From Verrucomicrobiaceae bacterium (lineage in GTDB: Bacteria; Verrucomicrobiota; Verrucomicrobiae; Verrucomicrobiales; Akkermansiaceae): a stretch of DNA of 10,797 nucleotides. The notes under the pieces are model-generated. The model was not told the origin of the DNA. It worked only from the letters and a program-made list of their open reading frames with translations, and did not search any database. Position numbers and translations under genes: made by a program. The stretch lies in the NCBI GenBank assembly GCA_003820635.1, contig RPOS01000107.1:1-10797 (forward strand). Reading direction: 5' to 3'. Positions 4,476-9,057 of this stretch are shown one piece after another. Position 1 is the first letter of the stretch; each line of letters begins with the position of its first letter.

Positions 4476-4637
4476 CGTGGAGTGCGGTGGCATGACACCG
4501 CTTTGGCTCCATCCCGGCCCTCCCGAAGTCCATTTCTGTTACAGTCCCTATCCGGCAATCCTCCTTGATGTGGCGTATCCCGGCCTTCGAAAGTCCTGCG
4601 ATTGATTGAAAGCGGTGTCATGCCACCGCACTCCACG
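4476..4637. repeat. REPIN-like element: perfect 29-bp inverted repeats around a 104-bp core
   Basis: The left arm 4476-4504 and right arm 4609-4637 are exact reverse complements over 29 bases. Each arm contains its own hairpin, GCGGTG (4484-4489) pairing with CACCGC (4496-4501), and begins CGTGGAGT, so each arm has the layout of a REP sequence (short 5' tag plus palindrome), here as an inverted doublet. The core holds a degenerate direct repeat (4511-4531 and 4577-4596, both starting ATCCCGGCC). The element begins 2 bases after the ftsY stop codon and ends 1 base before the stop codon of the convergent gene. Because each hairpin is followed by TTT on its own strand, it could also act as a weak bidirectional terminator. 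No obvious target-site duplication was seen. Confidence 0.8.
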
Positions 4638-5442: not shown

Positions 5443-5520
5443 TTCCCACGGATTGACAAGCCCACTTCAGAGGCAGGGCCGCAGCGCTTCATTTTCCTCT
5501 TCAAAACCAGCCCGCACGCC

Positions 5521-5860
5521 ATGCAGGGGGCCCGGAAATCCATGCCCCCAGACGAGGATCCGGGTTTTCACTGCCATTTCACGAGAATCCTCCTCCCGTT
5601 CATCATGCACAAGCGCCAGAAATTCGGTCCCTCAGCCGAGGGCTTCGGTTTTCACTGCCTTTGCACGTGGTAAATCCTGCTGTGACATCGTGCACAAGCA
5701 CCCGGAATTCGGTCCCTCAGCCGAGGGCTTCGGTTTTCACTGCTTGTGCGCGTGGTAAATCCTGCTGTGACATCATGCACAAGCCCCCGAAACTCGGTCC
5801 CTCAGCCGAGGGCCCGGATTTCTCTCCCAATTCATGATGAAATCCCGATGTTACGCGGCG
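5521..5860. repeat. About four tandem copies of an 85-bp repeat with a conserved hairpin
   Basis: Two good copies (5606-5690 and 5691-5775) differ at about 7 of 85 positions. A third (from 5776) is well kept for its first 43 or so bases and then decays, and a degenerate copy precedes them (5521-5605). Every good copy has the hairpin CCCTC-AGCC-GAGGG (5629-5642 in copy 1). A second stem joins the end of one copy to the start of the next (GCTTGTGC with GCACAAGC across copies 2 and 3). The 85-base period is not a multiple of three and the frames shift between copies, so it is not coding. Role unknown. Confidence 0.85.
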
Positions 5861-7158: not shown

Positions 7159-7332
7159 ATGGATACCCGTGGAATGCCAAACTGGAGGCGCAAGATGCTG
7201 GCGCTCCCAATCGGCGAGAAGGTCGAACTCATCGGCAGGTTCATTCTTGAAACCCGCCAACTCGAACAGGTGAAAAAATCATGCAAGCCGTCTGCGATGT
7301 CTTGGAACAACTCGCCTGCGAAGGTGCGCTGA
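7159..7332 (+). CDS. Small protein gene overlapping the nucleotidyltransferase gene
   Basis: An ATG 15 bases after the gcvT stop codon opens a 57-residue frame: MDTRGMPNWRRKMLALPIGE, then KVELIGRFILETRQLEQVKK. The first 40 residues look like a basic helical protein of the type often found just before minimal nucleotidyltransferase genes (this is from memory of such gene pairs). The last 17 residues overlap the next gene's coding region in another frame, and there the sequence looks unnatural. The junction contains six A's (7273-7278); a minus-one shift there would fuse this protein to the next one. It could be a partner or antitoxin-like subunit, or the 5' part of a fusion; both are inference. 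Confidence 0.45.
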   Translation: MDTRGMPNWRRKMLALPIGEKVELIGRFILETRQLEQVKKSCKPSAMSWNNSPAKVR

Positions 7333-7802
7333 AGCGCTACGCCATCGGCGGTGCCACCGCGGCCGGCTTCCACGGCGAACCGCTCGCAACACGGGACATT
7401 GATGTGTTCGTGTTCATCGATCCGCCGGCGGGCTCCCTTCTGGTCTCGCTCGAACCGCTTTTTTCCCGTTTGGCGGAGCTCGGATTCGACGAATTCGATG
7501 AGGAAGGACTTCTGATTCACGGTTTTCCGGTGCAATTTCTCAGCGCATCACCGGGATTGGAAACCGAGGCGGTCGAATCCGCTCTCGAACTGGAGTGGGA
7601 CGATCACCGTCTCCGCGTCATGCGCCCGGAACACCTTGCCGCCATCGCACTCACCGTCGGCCGCCCGAAAGACCGGGCCAGGCTGGTCTATCTTGCGGAA
7701 CTTCCAAACTTCGATCGCAGGCTCTTCGCTGACATTTTGTCTCGCCATGCATTGCAAGCCCGCTGGAATGAGTGGGCCACCGCACTGGGTCTCGATCCAT
7801 AG
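7281..7802 (+). CDS. Minimal nucleotidyltransferase-fold protein (AbiEii/DUF6036-like)
   Basis: The 173-residue protein contains YAIGGATAAGFHGE (20-33) followed by LATRDIDVFVF (35-45): the G-G motif and D-x-D pair of the DNA polymerase beta-like nucleotidyltransferase fold, which transfers a nucleotide to RNA or protein. The C-terminal half has MRPEHLAAIALTVGRPKDRA (114-133), a motif typical of the AbiEii and DUF6036 group, where such proteins act as toxins or abortive-infection effectors. The start ATG at 7281 is preceded by AGGTG (7268-7272) at 8-base spacing, one of the few Shine-Dalgarno-like signals in the window. It lies between gcvT and gcvH and shares no obvious function with them. 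Activity as a toxin is inference; the fold call is fairly firm. Confidence 0.8.
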   Translation: MQAVCDVLEQLACEGALKRYAIGGATAAGFHGEPLATRDIDVFVFIDPPAGSLLVSLEPLFSRLAELGFDEFDEEGLLIHGFPVQFLSASPGLETEAVESALELEWDDHRLRVMRPEHLAAIALTVGRPKDRARLVYLAELPNFDRRLFADILSRHALQARWNEWATALGLDP

Positions 7803-7818
7803 CTTCACCACCTACCCA

Positions 7819-8196
7819 ATGAACATCCCATCCGACCTCCGCTACTGCCCGTCCCATGAATGGCTGCGCCTTGAGGGCGATACCGCCACCGTGGGCATCT
7901 CCGACCACGCCCAGGAAGAACTCACCGACGTGGTGTTTGTCGAACTCCCCGCCCACGGCCGCACGGTCGATGCCGGAGATCCGACCGCCGTGGTCGAATC
8001 CGTCAAGGCCGCCAGCGACATTTACGCCCCCGTCGGCGGCGAAGTGATCGAGGTGAACCCGGAGGTCGAGGCCGACCCCTCGCTGGTGAACACCGATCCC
8101 TACGGCAAGGGCTGGATTTTCAAACTGCGCGTCAAGAACGCGGCGGACGTTTCCACGCTGATGGACGCCGCAGCCTATCAGGCGCACATTTCATAA
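7819..8196 (+). CDS. gcvH: Glycine cleavage system H protein
   Basis: GcvH is the small lipoylated shuttle that carries the aminomethyl intermediate from GcvP to GcvT and then to the lipoamide dehydrogenase. The 125-residue protein has the family's normal length. MNIPSDLRYCPSHEWLRLEG fits the canonical N-terminus, followed by GISDHAQEELTDVVFVELP, and the lipoyl site is in VESVKAASDIYAP with Lys63. The ATG at 7819 was chosen because the open frame upstream translates the nucleotidyltransferase gene in another frame. It follows that gene by 16 bases. The last 29 bases of the gene, plus one base, are duplicated exactly 860 bases downstream, beyond a toxin-antitoxin pair. Confidence 0.96.
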   Translation: MNIPSDLRYCPSHEWLRLEGDTATVGISDHAQEELTDVVFVELPAHGRTVDAGDPTAVVESVKAASDIYAPVGGEVIEVNPEVEADPSLVNTDPYGKGWIFKLRVKNAADVSTLMDAAAYQAHIS

Positions 8197-8197
8197 G
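8168..8197 (+). repeat. Direct repeat, left copy: 3' end of gcvH
   Basis: Thirty bases (from CCGCAGCC to TCATAAG) are identical to 9028-9057. The copy covers the last codons and stop of gcvH plus one base. It contains a short dyad, GCCT-ATC-AGGC (8173-8183). The identity breaks on the left (G versus A); on the right the next bases are only loosely similar. Confidence 0.95.
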
Positions 8198-8284
8198 GCA
8201 ACGAGACTCTTATCGTGCTGCCTTTGAAGTGAGATGGCTCAGTGCGGGAGTGAGGAACGGTTTCCGCTCATGAATCCAGTGGGC

Positions 8285-8312
8285 TTGTCAAATCGGGTTA
8301 TTCCGGTATCTT
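8285..8312 (+). promoter_or_regulatory. Sigma70-like promoter for the toxin-antitoxin pair
   Basis: TTGTCA (8285-8290) and TATCTT (8307-8312) are 16 bases apart, and the ATG of the first gene lies about 24 bases after the -10 box. This gives the cassette its own expression independent of the gcv operon. No operator palindrome could be identified with confidence. Confidence 0.45.
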
Positions 8313-8335
8313 TAACCTGTCATCACGTTTCAACC

Positions 8336-8590
8336 ATGCCCACTGTCACCAAATCCGCGACCCTCGATACGCTCGGCCTTCCAGCAGGCGATCATCTGGT
8401 GCGCTTCCACGTGGAGGCGGAGGTCATTTCGTTTGAAGTCGCCGCTTCCCAGCCACCTGCCGCCACAATTGAGCCCGACGGCGCGCGAAAACCTACGGGA
8501 TTCGTCAAAAAGTGGGGCGGCACGGCAGAAAAATTCGAGGATCCCGAGGATGTGTGGCTCAGGCACATCAATGACAAACATCTCCGTTAA
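8336..8590 (+). CDS. Small antitoxin-like protein upstream of a PIN toxin
   Basis: The 84-residue protein begins MPTVTKSATLDTLGLPAGDH and ends in a charged stretch (FVKKWGGTAEKFEDPEDVWL, then RHINDKHLR). Its N-terminal half looks like alternating beta strands with a DTLGLPAGD turn; the C-terminal tail, rich in Lys, Asp and Trp, is of the kind that threads into the toxin's active site in VapB-type antitoxins. The family is not recognised. The ATG at 8336 was preferred over an upstream in-frame start at 8234, because that start lies upstream of the likely promoter. The toxin gene begins 2 bases after the stop codon, as is usual for such pairs. Role as antitoxin is inferred from position and size. 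Confidence 0.75.
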   Translation: MPTVTKSATLDTLGLPAGDHLVRFHVEAEVISFEVAASQPPAATIEPDGARKPTGFVKKWGGTAEKFEDPEDVWLRHINDKHLR

Positions 8591-8592
8591 CC

Positions 8593-9021
8593 ATGCGGCT
8601 GCTGATTGATGCCAACATCATCCTCGATTGTCTGGTTCTGGAAAAAACCGGGCTGCCGCGCGCGGGAAGAACCGGAAGCGGATTCATCATCGATCTCTGC
8701 GACCGGAAGGTGCACGACGGGCTTGTCGCGTGGCACACGCTACCGATTATCAGCTACTACCACCGCCGCCAGAACACTGAGCCCGATACCGCCTCCATGA
8801 TGGACGAACTGCTGGCTACCCTGGAGGTGCCGAGGGTCGGACACGCTGATGCCGAGAAATGGCGCACATATGGTGTCCCGGACTTTGAGGATGCCTTGCA
8901 GGTCGCCGCTGCTCTCGCGGGCAATGCCGACTGCATCATCACCAGGAATGTCGCGGACTTCGCTGGAGCATCGATGGATGCCATGACACCGGAGGACTTC
9001 CTGCTGAAATTTCCTCCGTGA
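8593..9021 (+). CDS. PIN-domain ribonuclease toxin (VapC type, PIN_3-like)
   Basis: PIN-domain toxins are Mg-dependent RNases that cut tRNA or rRNA and stop translation until bound by the antitoxin. The 142-residue protein starts MRLLIDANIILDCL with the first acidic residues (D6, D12). It continues with VPDFEDALQVAAALAG (95-110; D97, E99, D100) and DCIITRNVADF (113-123; D113, N119, D122), which completes the usual acidic cluster. The spacing and the DFEDALQ motif resemble the PIN_3 branch. It is 2 bases downstream of the antitoxin-like gene and ends 6 bases before the second direct repeat. The fold and enzyme class are firm; the RNA target cannot be told. Confidence 0.88.
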   Translation: MRLLIDANIILDCLVLEKTGLPRAGRTGSGFIIDLCDRKVHDGLVAWHTLPIISYYHRRQNTEPDTASMMDELLATLEVPRVGHADAEKWRTYGVPDFEDALQVAAALAGNADCIITRNVADFAGASMDAMTPEDFLLKFPP

Positions 9022-9027
9022 GGAATA

Positions 9028-9057
9028 CCGCAGCCTATCAGGCGCACATTTCATAAG
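9028..9057 (+). repeat. Direct repeat, right copy: pseudo 3' end of gcvH
   Basis: This is identical to 8168-8197 over 30 bases. Read in the matching frame it still encodes the C-terminal residues AAYQAHIS and the stop codon of GcvH, but with no gene body in front: a stranded gene fragment. It ends 9 bases before the end of the convergent transporter gene. Confidence 0.95.

Follow-up and report, generated by a model that had tools for sequence, protein, structure and literature searches.

Direct copies of the gcvH 3' end around a toxin-antitoxin-like gene pair point to a probable insertion with target duplication

The window analyzed here (the whole stretch of 10,797 nucleotides on contig RPOS01000107.1) contains a toxin-antitoxin (TA)-like gene pair located between two exact copies of the 3' end of gcvH. 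Taken with a survey of TA loci in other genomes, this locus suggests that type II TA-like pairs follow a pattern similar to insertion with long target duplication (ILTD). We consider it fairly probable that the pair was inserted with duplication of its target through host recombination or repair, and that addiction may guard the insert against repeat-mediated loss. The features of the locus are as follows:

7819..8196, + strand: gcvH, the intact target gene, 125 aa (GCV_H, E 3.8e-44; PRK01202/TIGR00527), with the C-terminus that is native in homologues
8168..8197, + strand: repeat copy 1, an exact match comprising the final 29 nt of gcvH including the stop codon, plus 1 base
8198..8336, + strand: leader of the insert, G+C 0.50, with a single promoter-like site at 8285-8312
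8337..8590, + strand: antitoxin-like open reading frame (ORF), 84 aa, so called by position only; a longer frame runs from 8234
8593..9021, + strand: PIN toxin-like gene, 142 aa, VapC/FitB-type fold (PF13470, PIN_3, E 1.6e-14)
9028..9057, + strand: repeat copy 2, an exact match to the gcvH end, starting 6 bases past the PIN stop codon
9067..10650, - strand: MFS transporter gene (stretch as scanned), convergent (MFS_1, E 6.4e-23)

The two copies of the 30-mer are spaced 860 bp apart from start to start, exactly as the first-pass annotation of this DNA had described. Its statement that thirty identical bases are far beyond chance was also borne out, in that 40 dinucleotide shuffles of the window gave exact repeats of at most 17 bases (mean of the longest, 13.25). 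The longest exact repeat of the window itself is not the gcvH 30-mer; it is a 38-mer within four 85-bp tandem copies upstream of gcvT (5517-5855; 61-92% to the reference). Copy 1 is the genuine gcvH end, since homologues agree with it in both length and C-terminus: among the 120 homologues listed, 118 have a length of 125 aa, and their C-terminal end is like LMDAAAYQAHIS, with Y in 118 of 118 and a final S in 95. A homologue at 90% among these 120 belongs to an Akkermansiaceae bacterium, and by its sequence GcvH is probably of the Akkermansiaceae type.

Outside the 30-mer, the looser similarity that had been noticed for about 12 bases past the repeat proved to be at chance level, as 20% of random 30x30 pairs align equally well. 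Upstream of the repeat, an in-register similarity of 16/27 bases, chosen after being seen, was matched by 48 of about 148,000 random pairs (430 by extension score), and with gaps allowed it was equalled by 8% of random pairs. The in-register similarity is suggestive, but not when gaps are allowed. Copy 2 lies 9 bases from the stop codon of the MFS gene, which is presumed to be the original right neighbour of gcvH. The G+C content of the insert is 0.50-0.59, compared with 0.63-0.67 in gcvT, gcvH, MFS, ftsY and mutL (gcvT, gcvH and MFS were named via Pfam, ftsY via tblastn to annotated ftsY genes and mutL by eye). In agreement with the first-pass annotation, which had seen no recombinase in the cassette, none was found among the eight window proteins scanned with Pfam, the remaining ORFs being read by eye. 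Rfam and tRNA searches gave no match.

Several other features of the window deserve mention. A lower-G+C stretch between gcvT and gcvH (7159-7802) holds a 57-aa ORF and a 173-aa protein that is weakly nucleotidyltransferase-like, with DUF2204 below the cut-off and a plasmid relative at 38%; the plasmid search with this protein gave one match, which was not from Verrucomicrobiota. With this stretch on its left, gcvH may be flanked on either side by TA-like genes. No exact repeat longer than 11 bp was seen at the left border of the stretch, and an 11-bp repeat of the gcvT end (7129/7250) was dropped as a candidate because about one such repeat per 2.4 kb is estimated by chance. Just past ftsY (4476-4637), there is a 56-nt inverted repeat (80%) with a 50-nt centre, REP/MITE-like by eye.

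The 142-aa protein has the PIN fold and the conserved acidic residues of a type II TA toxin. It is full length for its family, with D6, D97 and D122 among the invariant residues (27 aligned sequences), and has 286 homologues at E <= 0.001, the closest at 77%. Its structure model has a pLDDT of 96.8, and of its nine PDB matches at E <= 0.001, eight are to VapBC, FitAB or TA complexes and one is to a Cas9-PcrIIC1 complex. The 84-aa ORF ends two bases upstream of the PIN gene. It had no family in Pfam, NCBIfam, PADLOC or PHROG and no homologue or solved relative, and is called antitoxin-like by its position only. Together, the two genes form a putative working TA system. The previous description of the insert as promoter, antitoxin-like gene and PIN toxin thus held for the PIN gene, whereas the promoter amounts to one promoter-like site against 0.5 expected over the stretch scanned, and the antitoxin is positional.

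Plasmids and phages contained no match to the PIN protein, and viral contigs contained no close PIN relative, with one at 32% when searched with an alignment. For GcvH, viral contigs had no relative when a single protein was used and 11 at 44-54% with an alignment. No Verrucomicrobiota record was present among the best 20 of 161 plasmid matches for GcvH or among the best 10 of 74 for FtsY.

To place the locus in a wider context, PIN (PF01850) and ParE (PF05016) loci were sampled in the phylum of G001, and direct repeats of at least 24 bp and at least 80% identity were sought between their 1.5-kb flanks. Best-scoring matches were taken, many of the genomes are in small contigs, and core positions in some loci are approximate. 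Of 140 sampled loci, 133 were testable; the other seven (L045, L056, L067, L085, L144, L163 and L186) were excluded for having less than 400 bp on a side. Three ParE places within 5 kb of another chosen one were left out, and L017, the first lead, is outside the 133 counted loci. Bracketing repeats were found in 17 of the 133 loci, which were classed as TA by toxin family with partners checked in some loci only, and which include overlapping L052 and L078 and near-identical L179 and L185. The controls had such repeats in 0/29 acetyltransferase (GNAT) loci (30 sampled, L121 dropped) and in 1/125 matched positions at a distance of 3.4 kb on the same contigs (Fisher p 2e-5 for TA loci versus controls).

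The sole control hit, L185, is at the gene of a nucleotidyltransferase-substrate-binding protein, a TA-type gene, and is itself at a gene 3' end. This family forms half of a HEPN/MNT TA pair. In two genomes (L185 7838-8950 and L179 7273-8385), the 3' end of the substrate-binding gene is repeated 1044 bp upstream, the two loci being 96.7% alike. When only gene ends were counted, the comparison was 6/133 versus 1/154 (p 0.052), a weak contrast in which L185 counts for the controls; removal of the six least convincing loci gave 11/127 versus 1/154 (p 0.0015). The frequency of brackets in the sampled TA loci is about 5% for gene ends only and 13% for every bracket. In 80 larger regions, the TA core was bracketed by 7 of 19 repeat pairs with a spacing of 600-1100, where 1.5 were expected (p 0.0003); these seven pairs come from six loci, including integron-type L197 and REP-like L137 and L152. 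A cruder first count had given 10/60 bracketed loci, including L085 (61-bp repeat), which was dropped later.

The brackets are of different kinds. L042, L152, L197 and L204 each contain the repeat at least three times, and their repeats are dispersed, simple or integron-type. In L197 (2857-5522), a ParE gene lies in an integron-type array with four attC-like repeats of ~70 bp (by eye), spaced 787-984 bp apart. The brackets of L137 and L178 are REP-like and chance-like in look, and L064, L081, L089, L093 and L194 make up the rest beside the gene-end cases; of these, L093 has a bracketed TA pair whose homologues match only within the repeats. In a second phylum, 4/28 PIN loci were bracketed (30 sampled, without a control set; the core of L276 was misplaced), including L270, where 68 bp of a gene 3' end, stop codon included, are copied exactly, and L253, which has a 175-bp repeat at a gene 5' end. 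Overall, the survey suggests a wider pattern in which long direct repeats bracket TA loci more often than controls.

Recognisable gene-end repeats were present in 6 of the 17 bracketed loci, as judged by reading and Pfam, with tatD called by eye:

L039: ffh 3' end, then rpsP (Pfam)
L086: hda 3' end, reaching two bases into the stop codon; 29 bp, copies identical (Pfam)
L150: 3' end of a ycjX-family gene overlapping the start of a DUF697 gene (Pfam)
L073: 5' end of a radical-SAM gene (Pfam)
L052: dnaG, starting 12 bases within its 5' end (Pfam)
L169: tatD; the repeat ends 110 nt short of the stop codon of copy 1, and copy 2 continues to a different tatD-like end (by eye)

The repeat at gcvH is 30 bp, compared with 65-152 bp in five of these six cases; across the clearer loci, the length varies from 29 to 175 bp. 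Differences between the copies are unevenly distributed over codon positions: in L039 and L169, 17 of 21 are at third positions (binomial 1e-5), and both ffh copies of L039 still encode the proper C-terminus. The proportion is 30/46 for L039, L169, L052, L073, L150 and L017 together, and 13/25 (p 0.04) for the last four alone. Such a bias is unexpected from simple duplication, in which the copies start identical and the idle copy drifts evenly over codon positions. Thus the third-position excess in L039 and L169 fits alleles of two lineages rather than one duplicated target. Judging from these sequences, it would fit the meeting of two alleles, one of them a donor gene end already linked to the incoming TA pair, and a gene end borne by an element would give the same signature. 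The gcvH copies are identical, and the two-allele signature is absent from the window; with identical copies, simple duplication is indistinguishable from import from a near-identical donor.

A different arrangement was observed in L036 (3942-7246), where the 157-nt 3' end of a phage capsid gene, including its stop codon and a hairpin (by eye), is present three times. One of the two gaps between the copies holds a PIN/HTH pair and the other an RHH_6 gene (L017/L036), an arrangement that resembles a series of insertions at a single gene end.

Comparison with relatives revealed empty sites for one of the gene-end cases. The gap between ffh and rpsP is 878 bp in L039; among 19 relatives' loci fetched, 15 had both genes (no ffh was found in the other four), and the gap is 60-187 bp in 14 of these and 323 bp in one. 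Subtracting the 793-bp unit from the L039 gap leaves 85 bp. The empty ffh site is therefore present in relatives of L039. For hda, 7 of 19 fetched loci had both genes, which are adjacent (10 bp) in only two and separated by 1251-1393 bp in five, a distribution that weighs against the insertion reading. The ffh, hda and other gene-end cases, together with the empty ffh sites, support insertion at a gene end. In a genome of the same family as that of L039, other genes and a PIN gene come after the ffh end (L060 3082-3366), with rpsP on another contig, and insertions may thus have occurred repeatedly at the ffh end.

The ccdAB genes between folA and apaH of Escherichia coli were also considered as a named example and were dropped, as there is no duplication at the insert. 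The folA-apaH query had a match in 5375/5426 E. coli genomes, and among the matches listed many had ccdAB between two pieces that jointly cover about 86% of the query. In an E. coli Nissle derivative (L248 1205-1840), ccdAB lies between folA and apaH, about 14% of the K-12 query is unmatched and no bracketing repeat is longer than 14 bp, and the absence of a long bracketing repeat resembles replacement rather than duplication.

In the reading that we favour for gcvH, an 830-bp stretch with the PIN gene and its antitoxin-like partner would have been inserted one base past the gcvH stop codon, at a tight convergent gcvH/MFS junction that was originally empty. Both genes would have been left whole, with the final 29 bases of gcvH plus one on both sides of the insert. 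The joining would have been carried out by host recombination or repair and not by an insert-borne recombinase. Donor DNA in which a gcvH end was joined to the TA pair may have paired with gcvH, with a low-homology join on the other side; alternatively, a fragment may have been captured at a staggered break. Recombination between the copies would restore gcvH cleanly, and the scar would survive because lingering toxin would kill or arrest any cell that loses the antitoxin.

That a staggered double-strand break simply captured a TA fragment, with fill-in giving an initially identical duplication without homology, is the least unlikely of the alternatives when taken as a full explanation, although we still regard it as improbable. 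It would account for the identical copies at gcvH, L086 (29 bp) and L270 (68 bp) and for the lack of reliable similarity outside the gcvH repeat, yet the mostly third-position differences of L039 and L169 fit two alleles better than one target, and the end point one base past the stop codon would be a mere coincidence. That end point is what would be expected if an integrase acting in trans had integrated the unit site-specifically at the gcvH 3' end, with the copies as attL and attR sites flanking a minimal, non-autonomous cassette, since gene-end attachment sites also stop there and leave the gene whole; the three capsid gene ends of L036 with TA-like genes between them likewise resemble serial integration. 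However, no recombinase was found among the eight window proteins scanned or the other ORFs read by eye, and the 30-mer, which the first-pass annotation had proposed as a probe for further cassettes, did not turn up in the other sequence searched: IMG/VR contained no 28-base core of it and 1.47 Mb of fetched sequence no copy, and in genome contigs a degenerate form of the 24-base gcvH coding end hit three unrelated loci, none with the 30-mer. Moreover, TA inserts elsewhere are found at 5' as well as 3' ends of different genes, with repeats of 29-175 bp, which speaks against the proposed class of TA cassettes mobilised in trans. We consider this explanation unlikely as well. Because repeats also occur at 5' ends and at varied genes, integrases are disfavoured as the general answer, though not for every locus. 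From the original proposal of gene-end integration, insertion with gcvH kept whole fits the anatomy, and its integrase-like, trans-mobilised part found no support.

Two further explanations concern the age and the reality of the repeat. If the TA pair were old at this site and the gcvH end had been copied behind it later by gene conversion or partial duplication, a 30-bp ectopic copy would have had to land exactly between the PIN and MFS stop codons, and the low G+C of the insert also argues against such a history, which we find very improbable. Least credible of all is misassembly of a metagenome contig at the 30-bp repeat. Three contigs carry the PIN protein, the longest of which equals the window in size, as might occur in that case, but a false join would still need the 30-mer adjoining the TA pair in the reads, and matched positions in the surveyed contigs are almost free of such repeats.

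It has long been asked how chromosomal TA pairs come into genomes when no mobile element is visible, and what keeps them there. If insertion with target duplication brings them in, insertion events can be counted from the scars and empty sites predicted. The excess of brackets at TA loci might arise because excision is penalised for addictive cargo, while for most cargo the scar would soon be lost. Retention by addiction would explain the excess without TA-specific mobility, although a TA-specific insertion activity is possible. If addiction indeed acts as such a filter, a repeat-bracketed insert would be lost quickly unless its toxin works, other cargo would be erased by recombination between the copies, and the scar would mark selfishly retained genes. 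We propose only tentatively, and with more doubt than for gcvH itself, that type II TA pairs spread in general as recombinase-free insertions together with a core-gene end, with the duplications as a general countable scar and addiction as the retention filter.

With regard to known systems, integrative elements such as phages, ICE and IME insert at gene 3' ends, leaving a direct repeat with the gene end and the gene whole. The gcvH repeat likewise covers the end of a gene that is still intact; unlike these elements, the insert is shorter than 1 kb and has no site-specific recombinase by Pfam and reading of ORFs, and similar cases also occur at 5' ends. Integron gene cassettes can carry TA pairs as sub-kilobase units between direct repeats, as is the case here, but the gcvH repeat is a coding end in two copies, without an attC-like array and with no inverted pair of at least 11 bases in it. 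IS elements and transposons have terminal inverted repeats and a short target duplication (2-14 bp), whereas the repeat here is 30 bp and no inverted pair of at least 11 bases is present at the insert ends. Homology-facilitated illegitimate recombination is a further concept in this context. As for the cargo, the 142-aa protein shares the fold and acidic residues of VapBC/FitAB PIN toxins, but belongs to the PIN_3 branch and has a partner ORF without a known antitoxin domain.

ILTD of restriction-modification genes is said to have been described by Nobusato et al. in 2000 and Furuta et al. in 2010. Two articles describe such insertions for these genes, with target duplications 'in the order of 100 bp' (PMC3031569, PMC3874152). 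Long target duplications at TA pairs were unreported in the titles and abstracts among the matches listed from openly licensed PMC literature. The gcvH insert differs from these insertions in its cargo, a type II TA-like pair, and in its 30-bp repeat, and the ffh and tatD copies resemble two alleles and not one duplicated target. Nevertheless, an addiction-type unit without its own recombinase (both genes examined by Pfam, other ORFs by eye) lies between direct copies of target DNA (8168-8197 and 9028-9057), and in the ffh case of the survey an empty site is found in relatives. ILTD of restriction-modification genes is thus the closest precedent for the insert at gcvH.
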